This document shows positions 29,345 through 46,829 of a DNA stretch of 47,741 nt, one piece after another (position 1 is the stretch's first letter; each line of letters begins with the position of its first letter). The translations under genes and the position numbers were made by a program. Under the pieces are notes generated by a model that saw nothing but the letters and a program-made list of their open reading frames with translations, did not search any database and was not told where the DNA came from. Where the stretch lies: positions 1-47,741 of the IMG/VR virus record IMGVR_UViG_3300008267_000225. One strand, given 5' to 3'. The stretch comes from a virus.

Positions 29345-29998
29345 ATGATCATGGACTACACAGCAATAGGCAGATTAATAGTTGAAGAGGTTGTAAATGA
29401 GGCAGGCATCTGTTTCTACCCAGCAGGCTTCAAACCACCACATAAAGGGCATTTCAAAGCAGCTAAAAACTTAGCATCGAGAAACTACATAACGGAAGTT
29501 GTTGTAATAATAAGCAGAAAGTCGGAAGAAGGTATCACACCGGAGCAGTCACTGCAGATTTGGAAGATGTATTTAGCAGCAGAACCAAATCCAAAAATAA
29601 AACCAAGAATAGCAGAAGCAGACAGTCCAGTAGAGGACATCTTTTCTTATTTAGGAAAGCATCAAGACGTGAGTGCAATATACGTTGCAGGTGGAGATGA
29701 TGAAAAAGATGACCAAGAATACTTAAAGAGTATACAAAGTAGATATCCTAACATCGTAAAAACAATATCAATCCACGAGAAGGATGGTAGAGTTAATTCA
29801 TACTACGTGAGAGAGTTATTGAGAAATCAAGATTACGAATTATTCAAAACAACTATTCCCGAAGCAGCTTACAATAAAGGATTCGCTCCAAAAATATTTC
29901 AAATGCTGACAGCAACAGTTCAGCCACCGGAAGAGCAACCAGAAGAAAAACCAACACTAAAAGCACCACCAATGCCAAATGAACCAGAACAAGCTTGA
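29345..29998 (+). CDS. Nucleotidyltransferase (HxGH, NMNAT-like) with leader
   Basis: 217 residues from ATG 29345, or 215 from ATG 29351. Counting from the latter, H31-K-G-H34 in PAGFKPPHKGHFKAAKNLA is the HxGH motif of the cytidylyltransferase/NMNAT fold. VAGGDDEKDD and a NSYYVRELL stretch (position of the ISxxxxR motif) follow. It transfers a nucleotidyl group; whether the substrate is NMN, a phospho-sugar or other cannot be told. The first 17 residues (MDYTAIGRLIVEEVVNE) resemble the cleavable leaders here, with I-V-E and V-N-E. The C-terminus is a Pro/Glu-rich tail. It may be a packaged enzyme. Confidence 0.85.
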   Translation: MIMDYTAIGRLIVEEVVNEAGICFYPAGFKPPHKGHFKAAKNLASRNYITEVVVIISRKSEEGITPEQSLQIWKMYLAAEPNPKIKPRIAEADSPVEDIFSYLGKHQDVSAIYVAGGDDEKDDQEYLKSIQSRYPNIVKTISIHEKDGRVNSYYVRELLRNQDYELFKTTIPEAAYNKGFAPKIFQMLTATVQPPEEQPEEKPTLKAPPMPNEPEQA

Positions 29999-30782
29999 TA
30001 CAATAAAACACTTCATTAGATTCTGCAAAGAAGAACTAAATATTCAATCGCTACCAGCTATTAAGTTGATAAGTGACAGGAGTTTTGTTGAGCAGTTTAG
30101 ATCATATGGTGAGTATAGTGTACACCAAAATCAAATAAAACTATTCTATCCAGGCAGAAATTTAGCAGATATCTGTAGAAGTCTTGCACATGAACTAGTG
30201 CATCACAGACAAAAAGAGCTAAATATGATAGGTGCTAACTCAGGAGAGACTGGATCTGAGATTGAGAATGAAGCAAATGCGTTAGCTGGTATATTGATGA
30301 GAGATTATGGCAAGCTGAATTTAAGTGTATACGATCTTGATTCACCGATGGGTCAGCTATCAGAGGCTAAGATCAAACCAGAAAATGAAATATTCTCAGC
30401 ATACAACGGTAGATATTTGTTCGATGTAACGAAGGCATACCAAATGATCGAGTCAGGAAAGGTTAAAAGTAGTATCAAGCCCTTCAAACCGTACATGATG
30501 AAGCAGTTATCCCATCCTGAATTTAGCGTAGCTGAGCCAGGAAAAGTGGCTGCAATGAAATTAGACTACAGCAAACCGTTGGGAATTGTGGTAAAGTTTG
30601 AAGATCCTGAAACAAACAAAAGTGAGTGGATTTTAATTGACGGTAATCATAGAACGAGGAAGGCCTCTGAGAGTGATCAAGACGGGTTATTTTATGTAAT
30701 CACTGATCCAAAAGACGTAAATAAGTTTATGAAAGTTGATACAACCAAAGCACATCAACTATTTCCAGACGACGACGAATAA
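29979..30782 (+). CDS. Zinc metallopeptidase fused to a ParB/sulfiredoxin-like domain
   Basis: 267 residues. H71-E72-L-V-H75 in SLAHELVHHRQ is the HExxH zinc motif, with E96/E98 in ETGSEIENEAN as likely third ligand, so the N-terminal half is a gluzincin-type peptidase. From about 135 a second domain ends in WILIDGNHRTRKA (D221-G-N-H-R225), the DGxHR signature of ParB/Srx-fold proteins. L-S-E-A at about 127-130 lies between the two. The start overlaps the previous gene by 20 nt. The target is unknown; peptidases of this type are common small-gene neighbours in marine T4-like phages. Confidence 0.8.
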   Translation: MNQNKLDTIKHFIRFCKEELNIQSLPAIKLISDRSFVEQFRSYGEYSVHQNQIKLFYPGRNLADICRSLAHELVHHRQKELNMIGANSGETGSEIENEANALAGILMRDYGKLNLSVYDLDSPMGQLSEAKIKPENEIFSAYNGRYLFDVTKAYQMIESGKVKSSIKPFKPYMMKQLSHPEFSVAEPGKVAAMKLDYSKPLGIVVKFEDPETNKSEWILIDGNHRTRKASESDQDGLFYVITDPKDVNKFMKVDTTKAHQLFPDDDE

Positions 30783-30793
30783 AATAAAATGTT

Positions 30794-31243
30794 ATGGACA
30801 ATAATTTAAAGAAAGAATTTGCACCGAGAGACGTGCAAAGGATGAGAAACATCATCACAGGTGACACCGGAGCAGCAACACAGCTACAATCAGGTTGGGA
30901 AAAAGAAAAAAAGAGTTACGGAGAAGGTGATATTATAGAGAAGAAAATGTGGGCTATTCACGGTAAGTGTTTTAGTTGTGTGCTTGAAATGGAAGCTGAA
31001 ATAAAAAGACAAGGCAAGTGGGAAGAGTACACATCGGGTGTAATGAATAAGAATAAAAATGCAGAGCTTACAGATATTGAAATAGTACTGGATGAGTGGA
31101 TGACTGAGAAAGATACATTCGTATCAGAAGCTGGAGAGGTTGAAAAGTGGGGAGGTGGTGATAAAAAAGCTATATATCAACAGGTAAAAGAACGTATAGC
31201 TGAACTTAAGAAACTTGATATTTATAATCAAAAAGAATTATAA
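30794..31243 (+). CDS. Conserved-looking phage protein with CxxC, unknown
   Basis: 149 residues, charged and helical. RDVQRMRNIITGDTG near the N-terminus and KCFSCVLEMEAEIKRQ in the middle are the notable segments; the single CxxC is too little to claim metal binding. No leader of the head type is present. A TATTTAT motif for the next gene lies within its last codons (31219-31225). Confidence 0.65.
   Translation: MDNNLKKEFAPRDVQRMRNIITGDTGAATQLQSGWEKEKKSYGEGDIIEKKMWAIHGKCFSCVLEMEAEIKRQGKWEEYTSGVMNKNKNAELTDIEIVLDEWMTEKDTFVSEAGEVEKWGGGDKKAIYQQVKERIAELKKLDIYNQKEL
31219..31227 (+). promoter_or_regulatory. TATTTATAA motif in the end of the preceding gene
   Basis: GATATTTATAAT, 17 nt before ATG 31245 but inside codons of the upstream gene, so a promoter role is less certain here than at the intergenic copies. 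Confidence 0.35.
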
Positions 31244-31244
31244 C

Positions 31245-31895
31245 ATGCCAGCAGTATCAAAAGCACAACAGCAAGCAGCCGGAGCAGCTTTAGCAGCTAA
31301 AAAGAAAGGTAAAACAACCGGACTTAAAGGCGCAGCTAAATCAATGGCTAAGATGACTAAAAAAGAATTAGAAAAAGTAGCATCCACAAAGCACAAAGGA
31401 CTTCCAAAACACATAAAAGAATCAGTAGAGGAAGGTGAGATGATAGATGAAGCTATGGGATATACAGATAATGTTTATTTTTGGATGGTACAAAAACCAG
31501 AAAGTGATGGAGCTGACCCACAAGAATTAGTGTATCCAGGAGACGAACAAGGCGAGCAAGGCATGGATCCGTTTACATTTGCTAAAATTGTAATGGGTGG
31601 TCTTACACCTAGTCAAGTATACGGATTTTATTCATCAAAAGATGAAGCACTAAACGCTGCTCACGATATAGTAGTAGCAGTAAACGAAGCTGCAAAAACG
31701 CTAGAAGAGAAAAAGCACACTGTTACATCTAAGATTGAAGAAACAATCAAAAAGCTACAGAAAGAAGTTAATCGCTGCATGGAAGAAGGAAAGGATCAAA
31801 AAGCTCAACAAATAATTCAAAGGATAGCAGAGTTACGCAGCAAGCATCAAATGGTAGAAGCATCTAAAAAAGAAATCGAAAAAGAAGAGGAATAA
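31245..31895 (+). CDS. DUF3008-type protein with C-terminal coiled coil
   Basis: 216 residues from ATG 31245, chosen over an upstream in-frame start at 31215 that overlaps the previous gene. Residues 1-65 (MPAVSKAQQQAAGAALAAKK ... KELEKVASTKHKGLPKH) follow the DUF3008 pattern: MPAVSKAQQ, basic middle, T-KHKGLPxH end. The middle part (about 65-140) is unknown, and residues 145-216 form a long charged helix, likely a coiled coil. Function unknown; the basic N-terminus might bind DNA. Confidence 0.75.
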   Translation: MPAVSKAQQQAAGAALAAKKKGKTTGLKGAAKSMAKMTKKELEKVASTKHKGLPKHIKESVEEGEMIDEAMGYTDNVYFWMVQKPESDGADPQELVYPGDEQGEQGMDPFTFAKIVMGGLTPSQVYGFYSSKDEALNAAHDIVVAVNEAAKTLEEKKHTVTSKIEETIKKLQKEVNRCMEEGKDQKAQQIIQRIAELRSKHQMVEASKKEIEKEEE

Positions 31896-31897
31896 TT

Positions 31898-32260
31898 ATG
31901 GAACAGTACGCACAATTCATCAGTACGCTTTTTGCATCACGCACTCAAGCACACATCTTTCACCTACAGACAACTTCATTTGCAGCTCACGCAGCTCTGA
32001 ATACATTCTACGATGAAATCGTTGATTTAGCAGACGGATTAGTAGAAAGCTTTCAAGGTAGATACGGAATCGTTAGAGGCTACACAAGCCCAGCTTCTTT
32101 CAAAGAAGACGATCAAGTAGTGCCTTACTTCGAAGCTCTATCAAAGTATGTAGAGACAGCTAGAAAAGGATTACCACAGGATAGCTACATTCAAAATGAA
32201 ATTGATAATGTGGTAGGATTGATCGAATCAACTAAATACAAACTAAAATTCTTACACTAA
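31898..32260 (+). CDS. Small helical-bundle protein, unknown
   Basis: 120 residues, nearly all helical. ASRTQAHIFHLQTTSFAAHA and FYDEIVDLADGLVESFQG give regularly spaced His, Asp and Glu on helices, a layout reminiscent of ferritin-like/Dps bundles, but the metal site is not clear enough to call. It begins 2 nt after the previous stop and ends one base before a leader-tagged gene. Confidence 0.65.
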   Translation: MEQYAQFISTLFASRTQAHIFHLQTTSFAAHAALNTFYDEIVDLADGLVESFQGRYGIVRGYTSPASFKEDDQVVPYFEALSKYVETARKGLPQDSYIQNEIDNVVGLIESTKYKLKFLH

Positions 32261-32261
32261 G

Positions 32262-32552
32262 ATGAAATTAATTAACGAAACAAAAAGAATGCAGCAATTA
32301 GCTGGATTACTAACAGAATCTCAGATAAACGAATTTGGAGGCTATGGCTTTAAGGAACCTAATCCCGAAGATATCGATTTTGTAGTAATGAATAGAAATA
32401 CGCCTGCTTATGTACAAGCATTTTCACCTCGTGAGCGTTTAGATATGGATCCACTTACTGATGATGAATTACGTTTACATATTAAAGCTACTGTAGATAG
32501 AGATGATTTGAAAGATGCTAGAGCATACATGGAAGAATTGATGAACGCTTAA
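32262..32552 (+). CDS. Leader-tagged small protein, predicted internal head protein
   Basis: 96 residues. The leader MKLINETKRMQQLAGLLTE ends in L-T-E at 17-19 followed by Ser, matching (L/I)xE cleavage, and is the same type as those at 54 and 33852 (I-N-E ... R-M-Q-x-L-A-G). The body is acidic, with PEDIDFVVMNRNTPAYVQAF and a C-terminal helix, and has no known domain. It opens the densest stretch of leader-tagged genes. Confidence 0.7.
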   Translation: MKLINETKRMQQLAGLLTESQINEFGGYGFKEPNPEDIDFVVMNRNTPAYVQAFSPRERLDMDPLTDDELRLHIKATVDRDDLKDARAYMEELMNA

Positions 32553-32575
32553 TACATTAAAAAGTTAACTTAGTA

Positions 32576-33187: not shown

Positions 33188-33188
33188 C

Positions 33189-33476
33189 ATGATCAAACTA
33201 ATCGATATACTAGCTGAGATGTATCCACCTTACAAAGCGAATATGCTGCAGAAAGTGAGGTATAAAGCATCCGATACATTTACCAATGATCCTAAAGTAG
33301 CTACAAAAAGAGGGTATGCAGAAGGATACCACGATCCAGTGGAACCAGGAATAGTTAAAAAGAGATTAGGAAAGTTGTCCTGCACACGAGTGAGATCAGC
33401 AAAAGCAAAACTAAAAGATAAAGGAACTCACTACGCAAAAGCACTACAAAGATATCTAAACTACCACTGCCAGTGA
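33189..33476 (+). CDS. Leader-tagged basic protein, predicted internal head protein
   Basis: 95 residues. ATG 33189 is chosen, one base after the previous stop, rather than an in-frame start at 33132, because it gives the leader MIKLIDILAE followed by Met. The body is basic, with KKRLGKLSCTRVRSAKAKLK and HYAKALQRYLNYHC at the end, a C-terminal pattern I associate with other small phage proteins. DNA contact inside the capsid is plausible. It overlaps the GTG start of the next gene. Confidence 0.72.
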   Translation: MIKLIDILAEMYPPYKANMLQKVRYKASDTFTNDPKVATKRGYAEGYHDPVEPGIVKKRLGKLSCTRVRSAKAKLKDKGTHYAKALQRYLNYHCQ

Positions 33477-33850
33477 TTAAACTTATCGACATATTGAATG
33501 AAGTGCTTGAAGAGAAGAAAGCAGATCGCTGTCTTCGTATCGCAAGACAGAAGTACGATAAGCCATCTGCCTATAGGTCAGGAGCGATTGTAAGGTGTCG
33601 TAAAGGTGATATCTGGAAGGCTATAAAAGAAGATGAATCCCTACACAAATGGTTCTCTAGAAAAGGTGGATCAGGATCATCAAAGGGGTGGGTAGATTGT
33701 AACACATGTCGTCAAGTAGACGGTAAAACTAAATGCAAAACATGTGGTAGACAAAAGGGAGAAAAAAGATCAAAGTATCCATCATGCCGTCCAACACCAA
33801 GTGCTTGTAAAGATTCAGGCAAAGGTACAAAATGGGGTAAAACAAAATAA
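33473..33850 (+). CDS. Leader-tagged Cys-rich protein (DUF5872-like)
   Basis: 125 residues from GTG 33473, which overlaps the previous stop. The leader MIKLIDILNE is exactly ten residues. The body has two parts: KADRCLRIARQKYDKPSAYR plus IVRCRKGDIWK, and ESLHKWFSRKGG ... WVDCNTCR ... CKTCGRQKGEKRSKYPSC. The second part resembles the DUF5872 family as I recall it. The Cys pattern (CxxC twice, then single Cys) could bind zinc. Predicted packaged; function unknown. Confidence 0.75.
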   Translation: MIKLIDILNEVLEEKKADRCLRIARQKYDKPSAYRSGAIVRCRKGDIWKAIKEDESLHKWFSRKGGSGSSKGWVDCNTCRQVDGKTKCKTCGRQKGEKRSKYPSCRPTPSACKDSGKGTKWGKTK

Positions 33851-33851: not shown

Positions 33852-34061
33852 ATGAAACAACAAATTAACGAAGCAGCGAGAATGCAAGAATTAGCCGGGG
33901 TACACAACGAAAACCCAGCGTCAAACCTACTATCATTACTAGCATCACCGGAAATGAAAACATATATGAATCAACTATTAGATACTCTGGGTAACGATAA
34001 GTTCATGCGAGTAAAAAAGTTGTACGATGGATTATATGCAGAGTTGAAAAAATACGAATAA
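33852..34061 (+). CDS. Leader-tagged short protein, variant cleavage site
   Basis: 69 residues from ATG 33852. Its leader MKQQINEAARMQELAGVHNE shares 25 identical nt with the start of the gene at 54, but the last part is V-H-N-E, so the Leu/Ile normally two positions before Glu is His. Cleavage may be weak or absent. The body is one or two helices (LLSLLASPEMKTYMNQLLDT). It follows the previous stop by one base. Confidence 0.7.
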   Translation: MKQQINEAARMQELAGVHNENPASNLLSLLASPEMKTYMNQLLDTLGNDKFMRVKKLYDGLYAELKKYE

Positions 34062-34408: not shown

Positions 34409-34683
34409 AAAATATAAAAAGAATATTAGGACTACCTCTAATAATAGGTATACCGTTTCCTATCCTATTTGCAGATCAAGACCATCAAATGTGGTATGCG
34501 GTATTAGCATATCTATTTGCATTTATCGGAACCGGGCTAACAATGGGATTCTCTAACTATAAAACAAGACCATACCATATCGGTAACATGGATAGCGATA
34601 ATATCCAACCAAAGATTAACCAAACGTGGATGATATTTTTTATAGCACTTATTATCAATCTAACCGTAGCTAATTTATTCTAA
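34405..34683 (+). CDS. Small membrane protein, 3 helices
   Basis: 92 residues from ATG 34405, which overlaps the previous stop; an in-frame start at 34351 would overlap too far. Hydrophobic stretches lie at about 7-22 (LGLPLIIGIPFPILFA), 30-50 (YAVLAYLFAFIGTGLTMGFS) and 74-92 (TWMIFFIALIINLTVANLF). No family recognised. Together with the preceding gene it makes a two-gene membrane pair inside the internal-protein island. Confidence 0.68.
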   Translation: MKNIKRILGLPLIIGIPFPILFADQDHQMWYAVLAYLFAFIGTGLTMGFSNYKTRPYHIGNMDSDNIQPKINQTWMIFFIALIINLTVANLF

Positions 34684-35036
34684 TGATCAAACTAACAGAC
34701 ATACTAAACGAAGCAAAAAAAGAAGAACCTAAACTAGGAGCCTTCGAAGAATTTGCTGGAACTAGAGAGAAGGGTGCTGAGAAAATAGCAAAGAATGCTA
34801 AAGAGAAAGGTGGTCTTTCCATGTTAACTTATCACCATTTTCACGTTAAATTACCATACTACAAAAAAGCAGCAGAGGGTAAATTGGACATGGAAGCAAC
34901 CCACAAAGAGTATAAAGATTTACTAAAGCAGCTACATACAGCAACTAAAACTAATATGAACATTGATCAAGTAGCTTTCCAAAAGCTGGTTGGCAAGATA
35001 GAAGTATTAGGTGAGTTACTAATAAAACATAAATAA
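34683..35036 (+). CDS. Leader-tagged protein, predicted internal head protein
   Basis: 117 residues. Leader MIKLTDILNE followed by Ala, the best match in the window to the T4 sequence MKTYQEFIAE followed by Ala. The body is helical and Lys-rich; LTYHHFHVKLPYYKKAAEGK is its distinctive segment and looks conserved. Both ends overlap neighbours by one base, so it is co-translated in the island. Confidence 0.75.
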   Translation: MIKLTDILNEAKKEEPKLGAFEEFAGTREKGAEKIAKNAKEKGGLSMLTYHHFHVKLPYYKKAAEGKLDMEATHKEYKDLLKQLHTATKTNMNIDQVAFQKLVGKIEVLGELLIKHK

Positions 35037-35455
35037 TGATTAAGCTCCTAGATATCCTAAACGAAGTGGAAATTAGCAAGTGTCCACCAGCCACTCAGAA
35101 CATAGAGTTAAACTTGCAAAATAGGCAAAAAGCTATTAACGAATACGGCTACGGACCACTTAATCCAAATAACCCCAACGAAAAGTTTTGGCAAGCCAAA
35201 GCGGATATGTGGAAGCTAGACTCGGTAGAAGAAGCTAAGTCATCAAAATGCGGTAATTGTGCTGCATTCGACATAACAAAGAAGACTTTAGATTGTATTG
35301 CCAAAGGAATAGGCGACGATCAAGGATCGGAGGATCCCTTTGATGTTATCGAGGCTGGGAAGTTAGGATACTGTAGATTTTTAAAATTCAAATGCGCTGC
35401 AGCCAGGACATGTGATGCATGGGTTGTCGGCGGACCAATAACTGATAGCAAATAG
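35036..35455 (+). CDS. Leader-tagged Cys-rich protein, predicted internal head protein
   Basis: 139 residues. Leader MIKLLDILNE, then a segment QNRQKAINEYGYGPLNPNNP and a Cys-rich C-terminal half: C74 and C77 (CGNC), C87, C112, C119 and C124 (CRFLKFKCAAARTC). Such a set could hold an Fe-S cluster or zinc, though no named family fits. The segment before the leader-free part (KCPPATQN) adds one more Cys. Packaged as inferred from the leader. Confidence 0.73.
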   Translation: MIKLLDILNEVEISKCPPATQNIELNLQNRQKAINEYGYGPLNPNNPNEKFWQAKADMWKLDSVEEAKSSKCGNCAAFDITKKTLDCIAKGIGDDQGSEDPFDVIEAGKLGYCRFLKFKCAAARTCDAWVVGGPITDSK

Positions 35456-36114: not shown

Positions 36115-36552
36115 ATGATTAAACTAATTAACCTTCTTGTAGAAAATAGCAACTATTCTGAGTATTCAAACGATGCTCTAAAAGATATGATTATTAATCT
36201 ATCAAGATACGAAGGTAACGAGGAAATTATTGCTAAAGTAAAAGATGAGTTGAAAAAAAGAGAATTAGCTGAATGCGGTGGATGTGAAAGACAGGGAACC
36301 GACTACACTCACGGACATGATCACGAAGCTTCAATGGCTGACAGCGAATTAAGAGATATGATCTCAAACGCATCCAAGCTACAAAATATGATTCAACCAG
36401 GAGACGAACTACCAGGATGGGTATCTGCTTACATCAGCCTAGCCGCTGATTATATGCATTCAGTTGCAGAATATATGGCAGGGCAACAAGCTGAAATGCA
36501 AGCAACAGCACCAACACCTGGATTTGCTATAGTAGCGGAAAAAAAGAAATAA
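36115..36552 (+). CDS. Leader-tagged protein with helical C-terminal domain
   Basis: 145 residues. Leader MIKLINLLVE (ten residues, L-V-E) followed by Asn. Residues 58-72 have a Cys/His patch (CGGCERQGTDYTHGHDHE) that may bind metal. The C-terminal 80 residues (ADSELRDMISNASKLQNMIQ ... WVSAYISLAADYMHSVAEYM) form a helical domain I recognise from many small marine phage proteins of unknown role. Predicted packaged. Confidence 0.75.
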   Translation: MIKLINLLVENSNYSEYSNDALKDMIINLSRYEGNEEIIAKVKDELKKRELAECGGCERQGTDYTHGHDHEASMADSELRDMISNASKLQNMIQPGDELPGWVSAYISLAADYMHSVAEYMAGQQAEMQATAPTPGFAIVAEKKK

Positions 36553-36553: not shown

Positions 36554-37036
36554 ATGAACAACATAGCGATTATAAGAAGGCTTATTTTAAACGAAGTGGA
36601 GAGAATGGAACCAAACGTACAATCGTTTGAGGATAACCCAATTGCTTTCCTACTCAAAAAGTACCCGACACTAAACAAGACTCTTGAAATGCTAATGACA
36701 CCAGCATTCAAAGACTACGTTACAGGTATCTATATCATAGCTCCTAAGCCAACAACGTTCAAAATAACACTACACAACGATCAGGAGTTCTTATTGACAT
36801 TCTTAGAAAGGGCATACGAAGCAACTGTAGCAGGTAAAAAGTTCTATCTAAGAACAATAGGTGAGAAAGAGAGATGTATAAATGCGATAGCAAGACTATT
36901 AACTCTAGGTAATCCAATTGAAACAAAAGGACCAGAGGGAGAAGAACAAACAGCAGACGAAGGTACAGGAGAACCTGAAACAGCAGCAGCAGAAGCACCA
37001 CCAGCAGAAACTGAAGCAGGTGAAACTGAATCATAA
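36554..37036 (+). CDS. Leader-tagged protein with acidic C-terminal tail
   Basis: 160 residues. Leader MNNIAIIRRLILNE, ending L-N-E at residue 14. The folded part (about 25-120; AFLLKKYPTLNKTLEMLMTP, ITLHNDQEFLLTFLERAYEA) appears compact alpha/beta. The last 40 residues are almost only Glu, Ala, Pro, Gly and Thr. Acidic tails are common in head-core proteins. It is the last gene of the island and is followed by an intrinsic terminator. Confidence 0.75.
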   Translation: MNNIAIIRRLILNEVERMEPNVQSFEDNPIAFLLKKYPTLNKTLEMLMTPAFKDYVTGIYIIAPKPTTFKITLHNDQEFLLTFLERAYEATVAGKKFYLRTIGEKERCINAIARLLTLGNPIETKGPEGEEQTADEGTGEPETAAAEAPPAETEAGETES

Positions 37037-37454: not shown

Positions 37455-39044
37455 ATGGCACAACAACCAAGCATATCAGATGCAATAAAGCAGGAACTAA
37501 TTAAATGTAAGCAGGATGCTGTGTACTTCATGAAGAAGTACTACACAATCCAGCACCCTACCAAAGGTAGAATGACTTTCAATCTCTACCCATTTCAGGA
37601 AAAGACTTTAAAACTCCTGCAGAGATACGATTACACGATCATAAATAAATCAAGACAGCTCGGTATATCAACACTGAGCTCTGCATTTGCTCTTTGGATG
37701 ATGCTGTTTGAGCAGGATAAAAACATTCTTGTACTTGCAACTACGCAAGCAACAGCAAAGAATATGGTAACGAAGGTTAGGTTTGCATACGACAATCTAC
37801 CTAGTTGGATGAAGCTACCGGTAATGGAGCACAACCGTCTTAGTTTAAGACTCAAGAACGGATCTCAAATCAAAGCAGTATCAGCAGCAACTGACTCAGC
37901 TCGTTCGGAAGCGGTATCACTACTTGTGATAGATGAGGCTGCGTTCATTGATAGAATCGAAGACATCTTTACAGCTGCACAACAAACCCTTGCAACGGGT
38001 GGTCGATGTATTGCACTATCAACTCCAAACGGTGTTGGTAACTGGTTTCACAAAGAATTCACAAGAGCTCAAGTTGGAGAGAATAAATTTACTCCAATCA
38101 GCTTACCATGGACAGTGCATCCGGAAAGAGAGCAGTCCTGGAGAGATGAACAAACAGCTCAGCTAGGACCAAGAGCAGCTGCACAGGAGTGCGATTGCGA
38201 CTTTAGCACATCAGGTGATACTGTAATTGAACCAAACACATTAAACTACTACCAAGAAAACACAGTAAGAGAACCAGTAGAAAGAAGAGACCAGGGAGGT
38301 AACTACTGGCTATGGAAGTACCCTGATTCAATGAAAACCTACATGGTTGTAGCTGACGTTGCTCGTGGTGATGGAAAAGACTTTTCAACTTTCCACGTAT
38401 TCGATGTAGATGAGCTAGAACAAGTAGCAGAATTTAAAGATCAAATACCAACCAAAGACTTTGCACGCAAACTAATATCAGTTGCAACCGATTGGAACAA
38501 CGCAATGCTAGTCGTGGAGAATGCAAGTATTGGATGGGATGTTGTAACAACAATCCAAGAAGCTGGCTACGCAAATCTATACTACTCTCCTAAATCAGAA
38601 GTAGTAGGTACTCAAATAGACTTATACGTAGCTAAGTTTGATAGAGGAGATGGAATGGTCCCAGGCTTCAGTATGAATCAAAAGACAAGACCGTTAGTAA
38701 TTGAGAAAGCGAGATCCTTTATAGAAGAAAAAACAGTAACAATAAGATCACAAAGATTCTTAGATGAGCTAAGAGTTTTCATTTGGAAGAACGGCAGAGC
38801 TCAGGCAATGAACGGATACAACGATGACTTAGTAATGCCGGGCTGCGTAGGACTATTCCTACGTGATACAGCGCTCAGATTTAGGCAGACAGCAATGGAT
38901 CTAACCTATGCAAGTCTCAATAGTTTCACAAGAACCACAAACGACGGTTTTCAAGTCTACACACCGTCATCAAACAACCAAAATAATCCTTGGACAATGC
39001 AGGCTGGAAATGAGCAAACAGACATAACTTGGCTGCTGGGATAA
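37455..39044 (+). CDS. 17: Large terminase subunit gp17
   Basis: 529 residues (T4 gp17: 610). ATPase domain: K65-S-R-Q-L-G-I-S-T (Walker A region), LLVIDEAAF with D160-E161 (Walker B), and ALSTPNG near 187-193 (coupling motif). Nuclease domain: D301 (VVADVARGDGKDFST), E355 (LVVENASIG) and D457/D458 (GYNDDLV). It pumps DNA into the prohead and cuts the concatemer. The P-loop lacks the Lys that T4 has in SRQLGKTT and has one at the start instead, as in lambda gpA. Sheath and tube genes, which follow gp17 in T4, are not here; the portal gene follows directly. Confidence 0.96.
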   Translation: MAQQPSISDAIKQELIKCKQDAVYFMKKYYTIQHPTKGRMTFNLYPFQEKTLKLLQRYDYTIINKSRQLGISTLSSAFALWMMLFEQDKNILVLATTQATAKNMVTKVRFAYDNLPSWMKLPVMEHNRLSLRLKNGSQIKAVSAATDSARSEAVSLLVIDEAAFIDRIEDIFTAAQQTLATGGRCIALSTPNGVGNWFHKEFTRAQVGENKFTPISLPWTVHPEREQSWRDEQTAQLGPRAAAQECDCDFSTSGDTVIEPNTLNYYQENTVREPVERRDQGGNYWLWKYPDSMKTYMVVADVARGDGKDFSTFHVFDVDELEQVAEFKDQIPTKDFARKLISVATDWNNAMLVVENASIGWDVVTTIQEAGYANLYYSPKSEVVGTQIDLYVAKFDRGDGMVPGFSMNQKTRPLVIEKARSFIEEKTVTIRSQRFLDELRVFIWKNGRAQAMNGYNDDLVMPGCVGLFLRDTALRFRQTAMDLTYASLNSFTRTTNDGFQVYTPSSNNQNNPWTMQAGNEQTDITWLLG

Positions 39045-39069: not shown

Positions 39070-41016
39070 ATGGCAGAACAACAAACGCAGAGGAATCTGT
39101 TTTCAACACTAAAGAGGTTATTCTCCACGGACGTTATTATACGTAACGATGGTGGTGAGCTAAAAACGGTGGATGTTGAGAAAATCCAAGTGGACGGTGT
39201 ACTACAAACGAATGCGCTTGTAGACCGTTTTAACCGTATTTACACCACATCAACTTCTTATGGTGTAAACCTTAATCTCGCTCAAAACTACCAAAATGTA
39301 CGTGTTCAAATATACGCAGACTACGAAGCAATGGACACAGATCCAATCGTAGCATCAGCTTTGGATATTATTGCAGACGAGTGTACTTTGAAGAACGCTA
39401 CAGGAGATGTACTACAAATCAGATCAGCTGATGAGAACATACAGCAGATACTTCGTAGTTTATTCTACGATGTACTGAATATTGAATTTAATTTGTGGTT
39501 CTGGATTAGAAATATGTGTAAATATGGTGATTTCTTCTTGAAATTAGAGATCGCAGAAAAGTTTGGAGTATACAACGTGATTCCTTTCTCGGCATATAAT
39601 ATTGTGCGTTTAGAAGGAACCAACCCAAGCAACCCATCCGAAGTAATTTACAAGTATGATCCAACAGCTGCCTTAGGTGCAACTGCAGGATACTCAACAT
39701 CATACCAGAATACGGATATGGGTATTACGTTTTACAATTATGAAATGGCTCACTTAAGATTGATTGGAGATATTAACTATCTACCATACGGCCGTTCATA
39801 CTTGGAGCCAGGTCGTAGATTGTACAAGCAATACGTTTTAATGGAAGATGCGATGTTAATCCACCGTATCACACGTGCCCCAGAAAGAAGAATTTTCTAC
39901 GTAAACGTCGGAGCAATACCTCCAAATGAAGTAGAAAACTACATGCAAAGAATGATTAACAAGATGAAGAAAACTCCACTTGTTGATCAGAAAACTGGCC
40001 AGTATAATCTTAACTTTAACGTGCAGAATATGATGGAAGACTTCTTCATTCCTGTACGTGGTAATGATACCTCAACTAGAATTGATACGGCTAAAGCGCT
40101 GGATTACAACGGTATAGAGGATATAAACTACCTATTAAACAAGCTATTTGCAGCCTTAAAGATACCAAAAGCGTTCCTTGGATACGAAAAAGATCTTACA
40201 GGTAAAGCAACTTTGGCAGCTGAAGACATTAGATTTGCACGTACAATCGAGAGAATTCAGCGTATTGTACTTAGTGAATTAACTAAAATTGGACTTGTTC
40301 ACTTGTATGCACAGGGCTATACAGACGAGTCTTTAACGAATTTTGAGCTTAGTTTAACAACTCCATCCATCATTTACGAGCAAGAGAGAGTGGCTTTAAT
40401 GAAAGAAAAGATGGATTTAGCAGCTCAAATGATGGAAACTAACCTATTACCGACTGACTGGATATACGATAAACTGTTCCACTTCTCTGAAGAAGAGTTC
40501 GATGAGTACAGAGACCTTGTTGCAGAAGACAAAAAGAGAGCATTTAGGTTCAAACAGATTGAAGAAGAGGGTAATGATCCAGCTCAATCAGGTCAGGCAT
40601 TCGGTACACCGCACCAGATCGCATCAATGTACGGTGGATATGGTAATACGAATCTCGCTGGTACAGAGGTTCCACAGGGCTACGATGAGATTAATCCTAA
40701 CGAACCTGTTAAATTACCAGGCAGACCGCAGGATAAAGTATCACTTATTAACACATCAGATGATCCATTAGGACGTGATAGAATGGGTGTTTATGATTTA
40801 AAATCCAAACCAACTACTGGAGAGGATAATTTAAAGACGAAATACAAAGGAAACTCACCATTATCGCTAAAAGAGGGTAGAGAACACAGCAATACAACGG
40901 TTGCGGCTTACTTAAGAAACAAGAGTGCTTTAGAGGCATTTGGTAAAAGACGCGTCGATCTGTACAAGGAGAGCGACCTGCTTAATGAGAACCAAATAAA
41001 ACCTGATTTAACCTAA
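39070..41016 (+). CDS. 20: Portal protein gp20
   Basis: 648 residues (T4 gp20: 524). Recognisable portal segments are YEAMDTDPIVASALDIIADE near 88-107, the wing/stem region MAHLRLIGDINYLPYGRSYL, EDAMLIHRITRAPERRIFYV and EDINYLLNKLFAALKIPKAF, then LTGKATLAAEDIRFARTIER. Twelve subunits form the DNA channel and the prohead start point. The last 110 residues are an extension with no T4 counterpart that I can place; it ends YKESDLLNENQIKPDLT, containing L-L-N-E-N like the head leaders. Confidence 0.95.
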   Translation: MAEQQTQRNLFSTLKRLFSTDVIIRNDGGELKTVDVEKIQVDGVLQTNALVDRFNRIYTTSTSYGVNLNLAQNYQNVRVQIYADYEAMDTDPIVASALDIIADECTLKNATGDVLQIRSADENIQQILRSLFYDVLNIEFNLWFWIRNMCKYGDFFLKLEIAEKFGVYNVIPFSAYNIVRLEGTNPSNPSEVIYKYDPTAALGATAGYSTSYQNTDMGITFYNYEMAHLRLIGDINYLPYGRSYLEPGRRLYKQYVLMEDAMLIHRITRAPERRIFYVNVGAIPPNEVENYMQRMINKMKKTPLVDQKTGQYNLNFNVQNMMEDFFIPVRGNDTSTRIDTAKALDYNGIEDINYLLNKLFAALKIPKAFLGYEKDLTGKATLAAEDIRFARTIERIQRIVLSELTKIGLVHLYAQGYTDESLTNFELSLTTPSIIYEQERVALMKEKMDLAAQMMETNLLPTDWIYDKLFHFSEEEFDEYRDLVAEDKKRAFRFKQIEEEGNDPAQSGQAFGTPHQIASMYGGYGNTNLAGTEVPQGYDEINPNEPVKLPGRPQDKVSLINTSDDPLGRDRMGVYDLKSKPTTGEDNLKTKYKGNSPLSLKEGREHSNTTVAAYLRNKSALEAFGKRRVDLYKESDLLNENQIKPDLT

Positions 41017-41048: not shown

Positions 41049-41900
41049 ATGATAAAGCACAGCAAATACAAAAATACCGGGATACTATTTGAACTTTTGG
41101 TAAGACAAGCAACGTCGGATCTAATGTCAAACAAGAACCCGATATCCGTAAAAATCTTCAAGAAATACTTTACAAATACAGAACTCAGCAAAGAGTACGA
41201 CTTGTACAACACAGTATTAAACGCTCCAAAATTAAACGAAACTAAAGCTGATATATTAATATCAACGATTACGGAGCAAGCAAAAAAACTAGACAGAGAT
41301 CAATTAGCTAAAGAAAAGTACAACCTAATAAAAGAAGTTAAAAAGAACTACGATCTTGATAATTTCTTTAAGGCTAAAATCGATGCTTACAAAGTATATG
41401 CATCGGTTTACACTTTGATTGAGGCAACACTCTCTGCAAGTGCGACTGATACAAAGCAGATCGTTACAAATAAACTAACTCTACTCGAGCATATCACAAA
41501 AGAAACTCTTACAGAAAGAAAAGTAGCGTCTAAGGTAGTTGAGGAGTTCATGAAAGAAGATAAAGAGATTAGAGTGCTGGCTTACAAAATACTCGTAGAA
41601 AAGTTTAACAGTAAGTACTCAACACTATCAAATGAGCAAAAGGATCTACTAAAAGAGTATATCAATAACATATCTGATACAAAGCAACTAAGAAGCTATT
41701 TGAATACTAAACTAGTTGAGGTAAAAGTAGAGCTAAGTAGCCTAAAAGAAAAAACACAAGACAAGGTATTGCAAATAAAATTAAACGAAGTGCTAAACTT
41801 CGTAAAGCCAATAGGACCTAACGAGTCAATAAAGGACGAGGTGTTGATTGGTTTAATGCAGTATTATCAATTAGTAAGCGAGCTTAAAGCCATCAAATAA
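41049..41900 (+). CDS. Head-assembly-region helical protein, unknown
   Basis: 283 residues, almost all helical and Lys/Glu-rich. The start MIKHSKYKNTGILFELLVRQ looks conserved and is unlike the MIKL leaders: no Glu stands at position 10. Residues about 215-260 could form a coiled coil. It lies where T4 has the core genes 67 and 68, between portal and protease. A scaffold or core role is inferred from place and composition; it overlaps the next gene by one base. Confidence 0.7.
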   Translation: MIKHSKYKNTGILFELLVRQATSDLMSNKNPISVKIFKKYFTNTELSKEYDLYNTVLNAPKLNETKADILISTITEQAKKLDRDQLAKEKYNLIKEVKKNYDLDNFFKAKIDAYKVYASVYTLIEATLSASATDTKQIVTNKLTLLEHITKETLTERKVASKVVEEFMKEDKEIRVLAYKILVEKFNSKYSTLSNEQKDLLKEYINNISDTKQLRSYLNTKLVEVKVELSSLKEKTQDKVLQIKLNEVLNFVKPIGPNESIKDEVLIGLMQYYQLVSELKAIK

Positions 41901-42988
41901 TGAATCAACAATTTGCAACACAGTTTTTATTGGAAGATTACGATGAGAAGTTTGAGTCGGTAAAAAGCACGTTAATACAAGCTGGAGCAAGCGAAGACGC
42001 TGCTATAATGCTCGCTACTGCAGTTAAGAACGGTCACCTAGAACCATCAGCAGCTATTCAAATTGTAAAAAATACAACTGGATTAAGTGAAGACGGTGGA
42101 GCACCAGCAGCAGCAGGTGGCGGATCAACAACTGGCGGAGGTGTTACTAACGGAGCTTCTTTCACAGTAGGCACAGGAGAGCAGTACGCAAGTACAAAGG
42201 CTTTTAAGAAAAGAGTACACGAGGGTGACAGCAAACCAATGTTTAAGGTAGGTGACAAAGTAAAATATCTAGGACATCCCGCTGTAATTACCAAAGTTGA
42301 GAAGGATGTAATGGATAGATGGCAGTACAATGTGTCATATAATAAGGGTACAGGTTTAACAAAAGCAACCAATATTCTAAATAAAGGCGGAGAGATCAAA
42401 CCAATAAGCGAAGATGCTCCAATGTACGCAGCTGGCAAAGCAGACATCAGCACATACACACAAGACGGGTTTAAAAAAGTAGAAGGACATCCAAAACTGA
42501 AAAGCATAGAACCTAAAGATTTATGGGGGACTAGCCCAACAGCGATGAGCGAAGATGTGGATGAAGTTTGGGATAGAGCAGATTTTCCGAAAATAACAAA
42601 GCTACTCGATAAAATAAAGCAGCAGAACGCTGACCTTTACGATAAGATTAAATGGGCTCTTGAAATGGACTTAGCACCACACACTTACGATGACGTAGAA
42701 GCTATGGCAACAAAGGCTGGATTACAACTCAACCTACAAGAAAACTACAATCGCTTCAAAAAAGAAACAAAGATACGTCCAAAACAAGACCAGTATCACG
42801 AAGCAATCAAAGTCGTAAACAAAAAGCTAGACGAAGTAAACAGACTTTTAGAATTTACATCTAGAATGAGAGAAGAATTATCAGAAGGAGAGGAGACCTT
42901 GGAAGTAAAAGCTCGTACAGCTAAAACAATGGATAAGCTAAAAACAAAAATAGCAGAAGCATATAAAAAACTAAAACACTTAAACTAA
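41900..42988 (+). CDS. Leader-tagged head-core protein with SH3-like domain
   Basis: 362 residues. Leader MNQQFATQFLLE ends L-L-E at 10-12, close to T4 MKTYQEFIAE in its F-hydrophobic-x-E end. A helical domain (to about 65) is followed by an Ala/Gly/Thr linker (68-90). Then comes an SH3/KOW-like segment (MFKVGDKVKYLGHPAVITKV, about 113-132) and a helical C-terminus with a coiled coil (about 290-362). It lies in the prohead core region between portal and protease. It is probably packed in the core and partly digested, as T4 core proteins are. Confidence 0.7.
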   Translation: MNQQFATQFLLEDYDEKFESVKSTLIQAGASEDAAIMLATAVKNGHLEPSAAIQIVKNTTGLSEDGGAPAAAGGGSTTGGGVTNGASFTVGTGEQYASTKAFKKRVHEGDSKPMFKVGDKVKYLGHPAVITKVEKDVMDRWQYNVSYNKGTGLTKATNILNKGGEIKPISEDAPMYAAGKADISTYTQDGFKKVEGHPKLKSIEPKDLWGTSPTAMSEDVDEVWDRADFPKITKLLDKIKQQNADLYDKIKWALEMDLAPHTYDDVEAMATKAGLQLNLQENYNRFKKETKIRPKQDQYHEAIKVVNKKLDEVNRLLEFTSRMREELSEGEETLEVKARTAKTMDKLKTKIAEAYKKLKHLN

Positions 42989-43413
42989 TGGCAGATAATT
43001 TTAATTTCAAGCAGTTCCTAATGGAAAATAGATTAGGAGCTTACTCAAAAGCAGGAATGGCTCAAGAAGCCGATGAAACACCAACAGAGGACAGCAATAC
43101 TGGTGGAGACGCACTTGCAGACGGTGAAGCTATTGGAGGGTTTGTTATAACTCCAGATAAAACTGACCCACAATATACACGTGTAGAGTTTGATGTACAG
43201 GGCTTTACACAGAACGGAAGCAGACAGATCAACTACGAACTAACATTTTTTCCAGCAACTAAAAGAATTACAGCTAGAAACAAAAAAGAATCAACAGGAA
43301 GAACACAAAGTGCAGCTAGCATTCTCAAAGGTGGCGGTTACGTAGATTTAGGTACTGATAACGTATCGGTACCAACCAAATATCAAGATTATCTTAAAAA
43401 GTACGCAATATAG
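42988..43413 (+). CDS. Leader-tagged small head-core protein
   Basis: 141 residues. Leader MADNFNFKQFLME ends L-M-E at residue 13; F-K-Q-F-L-M-E is the closest in the window to the T4 core Y-Q-E-F-I-A-E. After an acidic linker (about 25-48) there is a beta-rich domain (YTRVEFDVQGFTQNGSRQIN, LTFFPATKRITARN). It overlaps the previous gene by one base. Internal head protein inferred. Confidence 0.72.
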   Translation: MADNFNFKQFLMENRLGAYSKAGMAQEADETPTEDSNTGGDALADGEAIGGFVITPDKTDPQYTRVEFDVQGFTQNGSRQINYELTFFPATKRITARNKKESTGRTQSAASILKGGGYVDLGTDNVSVPTKYQDYLKKYAI

Positions 43414-43553: not shown

Positions 43554-43556
43554 AAC

Positions 43557-43563: not shown

Positions 43564-43567
43564 TAGT

Positions 43568-45274
43568 ATGAAGAATATACAAGCGCAGTACCAAGACCTT
43601 TTAGAAGGTAAAATGTCAAAAGCTAATTTCATGGTGAACGTACGCAGAGACTTTCCTCACTGGGTAGCTTCTGGAAACTCGTTTAACGATGCTGTAAAGA
43701 TTTTGAAGAGTAAGAGAATTTTGAGTGAAAGCCACGAAGGAAACACTCAGTGGTTAGAGACCTTTAAACAGGATATCGAAGCAGCAAACCTATCACCTGA
43801 AAAGAAAGAAGAGGCGGAAGCAGCTATGAGATATTTAGGAGATCATGGATTAGTTGATATGTATGGAATGATGCAATCACCATTTGCTGCCAGAGCTTTT
43901 ATGGGAGATGCTAGCGAGATTGTGAAAAGAGCTGAGGATGAAATGATTAGAAAGCACGATGACGAAGAGAGAGGAGAGCGTGACGTACTAGCTCAGTGGG
44001 ATCTAAACGAAAAAGATGAAGATAAAGGAGAGAGAATAGGCAACATACATATTGCTACAGATACAAAAACCGATTCAGATATTTATTTTGATCCTACGAC
44101 AGGCGTCTTCTCTATCAACATAGTTGATGCTGCGGGAAATAGACGGAATAAACTACAAGTCAACACCATCGACGATGTGGTAGCTAAATTTCCTGCTTTG
44201 AAATGGACAAAAAAAGGTATAGCTGAGTTTCAACCTGAAGACCAAGATACTGTTAATACCCTTGCTCTGCACGAAGCAGTACAAAAGCCAGAAGGAAAAT
44301 ATAAAGAAGTAACAGGTAAAGTTGAATACGATTTCTTCCCAGGAGCTGATCACGTAAACTACTACCAACTAATGAAAGGTCTACAATACGAGCTTTCTAA
44401 GATGGGAGAGATTACAGATGAGGCATTGGTAAAAGCCAAGCAAAAAGCTGTTAAGAATCTTGTAAAAGATCCAAACGCATACAGAGACCTAGTTATTGCA
44501 AACGTTAAGGATATCGAGAAAAAAGATAAAGATCTTAGAATGCAACCAGTTAAAAAAGATAACACGGTTGATAAGGCAAACGCAATGAAAGTTGTTGAGA
44601 AAGATGCAAAAGGAAACGTACAAGATAGCTTAGGAAAGAAGGAAAAAGCAAAAAATAAAAATGGTGAAGGTGTTAAACAAATGACACAAACTCCAAAAAA
44701 AGCTAAAGGCATTGCACAGGTAATGGAAGTTCCTGGCAAAGAAAAAGTACTAGCACTTAAAGAACATTTATTAGAAGATCTAACAGTAGAGAATCCAATC
44801 AAAAAACAATTTTCAGTTGGACAGAGAGTAGAGACTAACGACGGACGCTTCGCAGGAGAGATAACTAAGTTTGACGGTCATACAGCAACTGTAAAGTTAG
44901 ATACAACTGATCAAGAAAGAGATTTCCAACCAAACTTCTTAAAACACTCAGACGCAGCTCCAAGACCAAAGCTACCAAACTATCAATCAGATTATATAAA
45001 GAATGCACCAGCTCTTGCACAAAAAGAGAACATGAGCAGAGAGGATAAGCTAAAGTCAATCAAAGAGAAGTTGATGAAAGCTGTGAAAAAAGAAATGGAA
45101 GAAGGCGCAATTCTTGCAACAGGTAAGGTAGGGGATACAACCACACAATCGACACCAGTGTACTCAGGACCAACTGCAGCAGCTGCTATGCAAAAAGGTA
45201 AAGCAATCAAAGCAGCTACAAAAGATCCACTTAAAGTAATAGATACTAAAACAGGAAAAGAAACTCAAGTATAA
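43568..45274 (+). CDS. Large head-core protein with leader and SH3-like domain
   Basis: 568 residues. The start MKNIQAQYQDLLEGK contains Y-Q-D-L-L-E-G, matching (L/I)xE followed by Gly, the preferred T4 gp21 site. SKANFMVNVRRDFPHWVASG and FNDAVKILKSKRILSE follow as a conserved-looking domain (15-55). The middle is helical and charged with long Lys/Glu tracts (about 310-390). Residues about 418-455 hold an SH3/KOW-like unit (FSVGQRVETNDGRFAGEITK). It lies directly before the protease gene, overlapping it by one base. A scaffold or core protein that is processed is inferred. Confidence 0.7.
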   Translation: MKNIQAQYQDLLEGKMSKANFMVNVRRDFPHWVASGNSFNDAVKILKSKRILSESHEGNTQWLETFKQDIEAANLSPEKKEEAEAAMRYLGDHGLVDMYGMMQSPFAARAFMGDASEIVKRAEDEMIRKHDDEERGERDVLAQWDLNEKDEDKGERIGNIHIATDTKTDSDIYFDPTTGVFSINIVDAAGNRRNKLQVNTIDDVVAKFPALKWTKKGIAEFQPEDQDTVNTLALHEAVQKPEGKYKEVTGKVEYDFFPGADHVNYYQLMKGLQYELSKMGEITDEALVKAKQKAVKNLVKDPNAYRDLVIANVKDIEKKDKDLRMQPVKKDNTVDKANAMKVVEKDAKGNVQDSLGKKEKAKNKNGEGVKQMTQTPKKAKGIAQVMEVPGKEKVLALKEHLLEDLTVENPIKKQFSVGQRVETNDGRFAGEITKFDGHTATVKLDTTDQERDFQPNFLKHSDAAPRPKLPNYQSDYIKNAPALAQKENMSREDKLKSIKEKLMKAVKKEMEEGAILATGKVGDTTTQSTPVYSGPTAAAAMQKGKAIKAATKDPLKVIDTKTGKETQV

Positions 45275-45903
45275 TGAGCAAAGAAGTCTTAATAGAATAC
45301 ATGACATTCAAGCCACTGCCTAAGCAGTTGCACGAAGCTAGAATGAACCCAAGGGCTCAGTTCTTAGTATCAGGAAAGGTGCAAGCGGCTGACATGCCAA
45401 ATGCAAATAAGCGTATCTACGACTATGACACCCTACACAAGCAAGTAGCTTTGTATATAGACGGACCTATTGCAGAAAAAAGAGCTTTAGGTGAATTAGA
45501 CCACCCAGAAACGTCTGTAATCAACTTAAAGAACGTTTGCCACAACATCACAAGACTTTGGTGGGAAGGAAAAGAACTATACGGTGAATTTGAAATACTA
45601 GACACTCCATCAGGAAACATATTAAAAGAATTATTCCTAGCAGGAATTAACGTCGGTGTATCATCAAGAGCAATGGGATCTGTAATGCCAATAGGCGAAG
45701 GTCTTGTTCAAGTGCAGGATGATTTGGAATTAATATGCTGGGATTTTGTATCCACTCCATCAACCTATGGAGCATACGTAAAACCTGTAGGAGGCTTAAA
45801 TGAAAGCTATAATCCACAAATAAACAACAATAGACGTGCAGGAGTTGACAGACTGATCTCAGATATCATCTGCACACAGTCGGGAGTTTGTTGCATAACT
45901 TAA
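45274..45903 (+). CDS. 21: Prohead protease gp21
   Basis: 209 residues, similar to T4 gp21 (212). The serine protease fold of the phage prohead/herpes assemblin type is shown by H77 in GELDHPE and S130/S131 in GVSSRAMGS. W/F strands lie between (RLWWEGKELYGEFEI), and DLELICWDFVSTPS follows. It cleaves core and shell proteins after (L/I)xE during head maturation. Its own N-terminus has Q-L-H-E-A at 18-22, a possible self-cleavage site. It is the enzyme that would remove the leaders described here. Confidence 0.95.
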   Translation: MSKEVLIEYMTFKPLPKQLHEARMNPRAQFLVSGKVQAADMPNANKRIYDYDTLHKQVALYIDGPIAEKRALGELDHPETSVINLKNVCHNITRLWWEGKELYGEFEILDTPSGNILKELFLAGINVGVSSRAMGSVMPIGEGLVQVQDDLELICWDFVSTPSTYGAYVKPVGGLNESYNPQINNNRRAGVDRLISDIICTQSGVCCIT

Positions 45904-45924
45904 TATATTTAAAAAACAAATAGA

Positions 45925-46260
45925 ATGAACGAAGCAAAATTATGGCAATTAAGAGCCGGACTTATAACAGAAAGTGAGTACCAAGCATCAATGAAAGAGA
46001 CAAACGGTAGCATAGAACAAGAGCCAGTAGTCGGTGATGCAGAAGAAAAATCAGCAGTAACAAACTCAGCGACTCTCAAATTATACCTTAAAGATATAAG
46101 TACGGGTAAAATAAAATTGGATCTTGATCCTAAAGAAGCAGTAGAATTGTATAATTTTATCAACCAATTTGTAGAAAAGGGTAGCAAAGCAAGCATCTCA
46201 GGCATAGCTAGGACAACAAATGCAAACTTCACTAGAACTGTGAAAAACGTAAAAGCTTAA
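45925..46260 (+). CDS. Leader-tagged small head protein
   Basis: 111 residues. Leader MNEAKLWQLRAGLITE ends I-T-E at 14-16 followed by Ser, related to the L-A-G-x-x-x-E leaders. The body has an acidic linker and a small alpha/beta part (TLKLYLKDISTGKIKLDLDP, EAVELYNFINQFVEKG). A TATATTTA run at 45903-45910 upstream is a weaker form of the common motif. Placed between protease and scaffold, it is very likely a head-core or internal protein. Confidence 0.72.
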   Translation: MNEAKLWQLRAGLITESEYQASMKETNGSIEQEPVVGDAEEKSAVTNSATLKLYLKDISTGKIKLDLDPKEAVELYNFINQFVEKGSKASISGIARTTNANFTRTVKNVKA

Positions 46261-46271
46261 TTATTTTAAGA

Positions 46272-46829
46272 GTGATTAAGTTTGTTAATATACTAAAAGA
46301 GTTAGAAGAAGAAAACTCTATCGATCTATCAGATTTGAGAGACCTTCCTGATTTAATAGGTAAAGAGTTAGAAAAAGCTTCAAAGCAAGAGAACGAATCA
46401 ATACTAGGTGCCACCGCACTTGTACTAGCAGCACCAGGCATTGTTAATGCAGTTATGAAGGTCGTAGAAGTAATCGCTAAGAAAAGTGGCATTGACTTAA
46501 AAAAGAGGAAAGGTCCGAGTTGGTATAAAACCATAGAAAAAGTAACTGCTAAAATAGACGGCTATCTAGACACTCCTTTCAAACTAATGCTTCGCCCATT
46601 CATATCAGATCAGACGAAGAGAGACAAAGTTGCTAAATTTTTAAAAGCAATAACACTAGCAAGTATGGCAGTTTTAGGAGCAGTAGATCTAACCAAACTA
46701 GAGAGTACAGCAGCAGCAATAAGAGATCTTGCAGGCCAATCGAGCGGTGAGATTATACAAGCGGTTAGCGAACGCAGTGCGCCAAAACTAACACAGATAG
46801 TAAAAAACTTTATAACAAATCTTAAGTAA
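46272..46829 (+). CDS. Leader-tagged protein with membrane-like helices
   Basis: 185 residues from GTG 46272. Leader MIKFVNILKE is ten residues, ending L-K-E. An acidic helix (15-45) is followed by hydrophobic helices at about 45-67 (LGATALVLAAPGIVNAVMKV) and 118-133 (ITLASMAVLGAVDL), with basic stretches around them. It could insert in a membrane after ejection or be an amphipathic core protein. No family recognised. It is followed by a 129-nt gap. Confidence 0.72.
   Translation: MIKFVNILKELEEENSIDLSDLRDLPDLIGKELEKASKQENESILGATALVLAAPGIVNAVMKVVEVIAKKSGIDLKKRKGPSWYKTIEKVTAKIDGYLDTPFKLMLRPFISDQTKRDKVAKFLKAITLASMAVLGAVDLTKLESTAAAIRDLAGQSSGEIIQAVSERSAPKLTQIVKNFITNLK

Follow-up and report, generated by a model that had tools for sequence, protein, structure and literature searches.

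Interchangeable N-terminal leaders on unrelated proteins of a T4-like phage fragment are probably cleavable capsid-targeting propeptides

Introduction

Phages inject proteins which disarm host defences and seize the host cell, but apart from those of T4 and a few other model phages, not many have been described. In T4, the internal proteins (IPs) IPI, IPII and IPIII and the protein Alt carry an N-terminal capsid-targeting sequence (CTS) which is cut by the prohead protease gp21. Mutagenesis of the IPIII CTS, as summarised in PMC9026906, assigns positions 4 and 7 to targeting and positions 8 and 10 to processing. The T4 protein gp24 also sheds a short gp21-cut propeptide (PMC5694885). IPs are polymorphic in the T-even phages, where at least ten are reported and Ip1-3 inhibit Type IV restriction enzymes (Repoila et al. 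1994, as cited in PMC12373910), and the T4 signal has already been used to find further members (PMC12373910). Here we describe about sixteen proteins with a short N-terminal leader closing in (L/I)-x-E, encoded by the IMG/VR viral stretch IMGVR_UViG_3300008267_000225 (47,741 bases, the whole of which is referred to as the window), a linear fragment of a T4-like phage. As in T4-type CTS propeptides, the leaders are short N-terminal segments (~7-20 residues) ahead of unrelated proteins. We consider it very likely that they are cleavable capsid-targeting propeptides of the CTS type.

Leaders of the window

Genes and their proteins are named here by their start coordinate. The leaders and leader-like N-termini of the window are the following:

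33189..33218, plus strand: MIKL-class leader MIKLIDILAE of protein 33189-33476; orthologs retain MIKLxDIL(A/N)E
33473..33502, plus strand: MIKL-class leader MIKLIDILNE (GTG start) of protein 33473-33850, whose body swaps leaders among relatives
34683..34712, plus strand: MIKL-class leader MIKLTDILNE of protein 34683-35036
35036..35065, plus strand: MIKL-class leader MIKLLDILNE of protein 35036-35455; [LI]xE in 25/27 distinct ortholog leaders
36115..36144, plus strand: MIKL-class leader MIKLINLLVE of protein 36115-36552; relatives have MIRLANLLNE and MIKLKDLLPE
46272..46301, plus strand: MIKL-class leader MIKFVNILKE (GTG start) of protein 46272-46829
1482..1511, plus strand: degenerate MIKL-class leader MIKLSDLIDL, without Glu at position 10
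54..113, plus strand: LAG-class leader MKQQINEAVRLKQLAGILSE of protein 54-362
32262..32318, plus strand: LAG-class leader MKLINETKRMQQLAGLLTE of protein 32262-32552
33852..33911, plus strand: LAG-class leader MKQQINEAARMQELAGVHNE, with a degenerate cleavage site
45925..45972, plus strand: LAG-like leader MNEAKLWQLRAGLITE of protein 45925-46260
450..497, plus strand: leader MNHLLLEYLIRQILSE of protein 450-1469 (phrog_13937, 1.1e-28)
29345..29386, plus strand: leader MIMDYTAIGRLIVE of the cytidylyltransferase-like protein 29345-29998 (phrog_3041, 3.1e-7)
36554..36595, plus strand: leader MNNIAIIRRLILNE of protein 36554-37036
41900..41935, plus strand: F-type leader MNQQFATQFLLE of protein 41900-42988, between gp20 and gp21
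42988..43026, plus strand: F-class leader MADNFNFKQFLME of protein 42988-43413; relatives have NFDLKKFLVENKLT
43568..43606, plus strand: N-terminus MKNIQAQYQDLLE of a 568-residue protein 5' of gp21, a probable core/scaffold protein
8239..8277, plus strand: leader-like N-terminus MAKLDLLRKIIRE of protein 8239-8676, outside the head/cargo block

The start of 33189 is an internal ATG within a longer program-predicted open reading frame (ORF; 33132). The body of 33473 is DUF5872-like (Pfam DUF5872, 2.5e-5, under the cutoff).

An initial annotation of the window had listed sixteen leaders, and all were found at the gene starts it assigned to them. It had also pointed out the degenerate copy at 1482 and the absence of a good (L/I)xE site from the 33852 leader, both of which we recover; the leader-like N-terminus MAKLDLLRKIIREE at 8239 was absent from its list. 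Its description of position 6 as acidic holds for four of the six short leaders, the residue being Asn in 36115 and 46272. It treated the leaders as a single family, which is replaced here by at least four interchangeable classes: MIK(L)xDILxE (MIKL), MKKSELRQIIKEExxKxLNE (KKSELR), (K)RMQKLAG(I/L)(I/L)TE (LAG) and NFDLKKFLxENKLTxNS (F-class).

Retention of the predicted cleavage site on leader exchange

The leaders are modular, and one body can be found behind several of them. Flavobacterium phage immuto is the only cultured relative found with shared leaders: tblastn of the leader peptides against cultured phages returned immuto isolates only, together with one weak match in an uncultured phage record. 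In its ortholog of 33473, a different leader precedes an unchanged body start, KKADRCLRIARQKYDKPSAYRSGAIV. Among the leaders of 54 relatives of 34683 are MIKLTDILNE, MKIFDLIIE, MNKLNEQLLRLSGLLTE and MKNQVKQFGEFINE, and Glu 10 hardly varies in their alignment. Because the 33473 and 34683 sets were picked by body, the motif was not selected for; [LI]xE is nevertheless kept in 55/55 and 35/36 of their distinct leaders respectively, compared to means of 32.5 (maximum 44) and 21.0 (maximum 31) in 2000 composition-preserving shuffles of the same sets. In the 33473 family, position 10 is Gln or Asp in six leaders, each of which has another (L/I)xE shortly downstream. For the cytidylyltransferase-like protein 29345, the motif is present in 31 of 33 distinct ortholog leaders despite their differing sequences.

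Residue conservation, selection and structure models

In MIKL-class leaders, positions 4, 7, 8 and 10 are nearly fixed while 5 and 9 are free. The conserved positions match those identified by mutagenesis of T4 IPIII. The IPIII positions were not used in choosing the sequences, apart from position 4, which the selection pattern held partly constant; positions 7, 8 and 10 were left free. The likeness between the T4 CTS, MKTYQEFIAE, and the leaders is at the level of pattern only, the segments being too short for homology. Some orthologs carry T4-like forms, MKNQVKQFGEFINE (stretch L571) and MINFKQFFLEQ (L563).

The leader peptide is under selection, as the initial annotation had claimed. The comparison of leader and body it had proposed gave pN/pS values of 0.33-0.37 for the leader, with synonymous sites saturated, and 0.23-0.25 for the body, and the 15 copies of MIKLKDILNE among the matches listed are coded by 14 DNA forms. 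The age it attributed to the leader copies stands for the MIKL set and not for the leaders of 54 and 33852, two unrelated proteins, which open with 24 identical nt (54-77 and 33852-33875). This suggests that leader DNA was copied recently within the genome at least once.

These 24 shared nucleotides, together with tandem runs of leader genes such as those of stretches L252 and L281 (eight matches each), are what might be seen if the N-terminal stretches had no common function and had been spread by duplication, by recombination hitch-hiking (new genes arising through fusion to a start already present) or by some advantage in translation start. Such an origin, already disfavoured, is very improbable given that identical peptides occur in nearly as many DNA forms as copies, that pN/pS is low at saturated synonymous sites and that dissimilar leaders on one body still retain (L/I)xE.

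The AlphaFold model of 34683 (mean pLDDT 91) has a weakly held, detached leader helix (pLDDT ~58), a disordered linker at residues 10-14 (pLDDT <50) and a compact body (>95) modelled as a helical bundle, which has one uncultured-phage match; a structure/PDB search with 34683 gave no PDB match below E 0.001. The model of 33473 is poor (mean pLDDT 64) and uninformative.

Leader classes and their distribution

Viral contigs were scanned with DNA patterns, one per leader class. Each of the four classes matched at least about 120 stretches; for comparison, an exact 15-mer of arbitrary sequence matched 52. The estimated number of chance matches is less than one for the LAG and KKSELR patterns and a few for MIKL, and reversed-pattern controls gave zero matches. 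Among the matches listed, the MIKL, LAG and KKSELR classes comprise 395 distinct proteins in 244 unrelated body families, 10 of which occur with more than one leader class, and the F-class comprises 115 proteins in 56 body families; in 109 of the 115 the motif is at residue 3 or 4. With at least four classes and unlike leaders on orthologous bodies, descent of all the leaders from a single common one was ruled out. In each of the stretches L252 and L281, eight genes have a MKKSELRQIIKEE-type leader, seven of them within ~2.5 kb.

The LAG pattern was also run against 257 Gb of bacterial and archaeal genomes, where it gave ten matches, nine of them by chance, mostly in very short ORFs, and a cellular origin of the leaders was therefore ruled out. 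The tenth, a true leader protein, lies in a Fluviicola metagenome-assembled genome (contig JAJTEO010000009.1, L639), a Bacteroidota bin, as would fit a host from this phylum.

Two classes provide further information on the site itself. Among 74 families listed, 64 have A, S or G directly after the LAG-class site, at a position left free by the search pattern, versus 111 of 492 internal sites (p=1e-26). In the KKSELR class the first site is followed by Glu, and a second site lies near residue 16-20 in 96 of 112 families listed (50 in shuffles, maximum 64); cleavage in this class would therefore probably occur at the second site.

The leaders could instead be docking tags which remain uncut, anchoring proteins to the core, the portal or another part of the virion in the manner of encapsulin cargo-loading peptides, with the Glu forming a binding surface. 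Positions 4 and 7 are indeed conserved as strongly as 8 and 10, and our case for cleavage is drawn from sequence. We nevertheless judge this unlikely: (L/I)xE is the one feature common to all leader classes, the 33473-family leaders lacking Glu 10 regain the motif a few residues on, the P1' residue is small in the LAG class and, as described below, the protease co-occurs with the leaders.

Enrichment around the head genes

The motif hydrophobic-(L/I)-x-E was scored within the first 25 residues of each protein. In the window it is present in 9/17 genes of the cargo region (29345-37036), 6/10 of the head region (37160-46829), 2/3 at the left end (54-1925) and 2/26 of the remaining genes (Fisher p=1.5e-4); its rate in random internal 25-mers is 6.3%, and one of the nine cargo-region positives (32576, MLDE) is probably due to chance. 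The exact ten-mer [MV][IV]K[LF]xx[ILV]LxE has six matches across the six frames, all at plausible gene starts. The genome of immuto is complete and annotated, and its 102-129 kb block is the counterpart of the window's cargo and head block. There the motif is present in 18/33 genes versus 17/196 elsewhere (p=5.8e-9), and the leader MENFDLKKFLVENKLT... heads four different proteins. Decoys, shuffles and this genome-wide test rule out chance as an explanation of (L/I)xE. Genes 1803, 24569 and 25061 of immuto, outside the block, plainly bear the same leaders.

Proteins 8239-8676 of the window and 81525-81944 of immuto (MKLDLLKKLIKEAV) both have leader-like N-termini and both genes are directly upstream of a baseplate gene. 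They may be genuine leaders located away from the head block, or helices with no relation to the leaders.

Association with the prohead protease and head genes

Tail and baseplate genes are followed in the window by DNA enzymes, then by small genes in a block at 29345-37036 and by a head module of T4 type; the window ends before gp23. A nucleotide search of phage records with the window gave no match. The head genes include:

37455..39044, plus strand: gp17-type large terminase (phrog_2, 1.1e-48)
39070..41016, plus strand: gp20-type portal protein (phrog_213, 9.3e-66)
45274..45903, plus strand: gp21-type prohead protease (Peptidase_S77), presumed to cut the leaders (PF03420, 1.9e-24; phrog_207, 1.2e-47)

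When the protease is aligned to T4 gp21, the catalytic residues H77, S130/S131 and D157 are invariant. Its nearest annotated relatives, from Microcystis phage Mel-JY01 and immuto, are 44-46% identical. The segment between gp20 and gp21 corresponds to the gp67/gp68 position of T4, where core and scaffold genes lie. In G004, G010 and G018 (contigs of L173, L242 and L369), the S77 match falls in open frames of ~590-630 residues, far above the size of gp21 and possibly a fusion with an adjoining head protein.

The leaders are linked to this protease. Among leader contigs of 100 kb or more, 22 of 23 encode S77, versus 6 of 18 random contigs (p=2.5e-5), and the same 22 encode gp23. This co-occurrence favours the initial annotation, which had named equal frequency of leaders in phages lacking a gp21-type protease as evidence against its interpretation. 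The exceptional contig, without S77 and without gp23, ends in its cargo block ahead of any head module. Since the leader block of the window directly precedes the terminase, the head module of this contig was probably not assembled. The end of this 102-kb contig (L361:924-13121) is a run of ~12 leader genes, including a zeta-toxin/AAA_33-like kinase behind MKLLDILKE and an ortholog of the cytidylyltransferase.

Amphipathic leaders could also serve as targeting helices which sort proteins elsewhere, to a membrane, a replication compartment or the cell envelope, (L/I)xE then arising from composition. The leaders are amphipathic, some of the cargo consists of cell-wall hydrolases (M23, lysozyme, Hydrolase_2) and a small number of leader genes are located away from the head block. 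Composition-preserving shuffles, however, fail to reproduce the motif, the leaders track the S77/gp23 head module and similar N-termini are found on proteins encoded between gp20 and gp21, so that we regard sorting elsewhere as quite unlikely.

Leader-bearing bodies

Most leader-bearing bodies have no known function. Those which could be named among 130 families include M23 peptidase with lysozyme, phage lysozyme, cell wall hydrolase (Hydrolase_2), zeta-toxin/AAA kinases, a RimK-type ligase, NUDIX, a DEDD exonuclease and a deoxyribonucleotidase, predicted activities that would fit proteins acting early in a new host. No IPI-III or Alt family is present among the PHROG, Pfam and NCBIfam matches listed for the bodies. 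The proteins 41900, 42988 and 43568, together with gp21 itself, may by analogy be assembly factors or core components rather than cargo. A cargo family with a YHFT motif is found with both MIKL and LAG leaders (L106, L192, L349, L351, L431 and L438); its resemblance to ADP-ribosyltransferases is by eye only, with no Pfam or PDB sequence match, and the assignment is not claimed.

Proposed mechanism

We propose that the short amphipathic N-terminal segment would dock a newly made protein onto the prohead core, and that the S77 protease (45274-45903) would then cut after (L/I)-x-E, releasing the body within the head as it matures. Most bodies would be cargo, staying among the DNA in the head and entering the host with it, like the T4 Alt and IP proteins; some, encoded between gp20 and gp21, would be core proteins. 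Capsid targeting had been suggested in the initial annotation, and it is supported by every computational test which could have told against it: the co-occurrence with S77, the near-absence of the leaders from cellular genomes, purifying selection and the retention of (L/I)xE on exchange.

Several points weigh against this interpretation. For this clade, docking, cutting, packaging and above all ejection are what we infer. Leaders within one family share ancestry and do not count as independent, so that the numbers lose some weight but keep their direction. Size-matched controls for the protease association are few, and 5 of 9 random contigs of at least 88 kb also have S77 (p=0.015). The random S77-positive contigs have none of these leader patterns; the protease is therefore not sufficient, and other T4-like phages may use other signals. 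The location of the leaders is not strict, as illustrated by the leader-like N-termini outside the head block (8239; immuto 1803, 24569 and 25061). One body is RIIB-like, which is unexpected in heads.

A broader proposal, which we advance tentatively and with some reserve, is that of a modular address system: a large uncultured T4-like clade would use interchangeable classes of cleavable head-entry tag, possibly docking to different core partners, on many proteins per particle. The tags would mark out a "secretome" comprising hundreds of effector families, among them cell-wall hydrolases, zeta-toxin-like kinases, RimK-like ligases, nucleases and nucleotidyltransferases, which would be acquired and given new tags through leader exchange. 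If the leaders are CTS-type tags, an N-terminal search would allow probable injected proteins to be catalogued from the sequences of uncultured viruses, and the four leader-class scans so far provide at least about 300 candidate body families. A single phage would then also be able to tag at least 12 different proteins for entry into the head and to swap tags among them. Since immuto is cultured, the proposal is directly testable.

Comparison with known systems

In many ways the leaders resemble the gp21-cut CTS of T4 IPI, IPII, IPIII and Alt: they are N-terminal, of about 10-20 residues, end in (L/I)xE and have key positions 4, 7, 8 and 10, and in both cases one signal precedes unrelated bodies and an S77 protease is encoded by the same phage. 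In contrast to the T4 CTS, those of the window have different sequences, form at least four classes and are exchanged between orthologs. About 16 leader proteins are encoded in one 47.7-kb fragment, concentrated in a block just upstream of gp17, compared to the three IPs and Alt of T4, and the cargo has no homology to T4 IPs in the searches made. The closest T4 look-alike of the MIKL class is the gp24 N-terminus, MAKINELLRE, which has ten residues, hydrophobic positions 7-8 and Glu 10; gp24 is, however, a shell protein, unlike the cargo of the window. As with the T-even IPs, many different injected proteins would be grouped under one N-terminal signal and a counter-defence role is expected, but the at least ten IPs reported there contrast with hundreds of body families here, most without a named function.

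Head and ejection proteins of phiKZ and SPN3US also have N-terminal propeptides which are cut by the prohead protease and probably direct them to the head, as proposed here. Those propeptides are mostly longer than 100 residues, end in A-x-E or S-x-E sites and have no shared short tag. Similarly, N-terminal residues of phage P1 DarB send a reporter to the head (PMC9024508), although the Dar proteins have no common sequence and belong to another head system. We found no earlier description of the present leaders in the open-access literature, subscription papers not being covered. The class of mechanism is known. New are the leader sequences and the classes they form, how many proteins one phage tags, the swapping of leaders between orthologs and how widely the leaders occur in uncultured phages.

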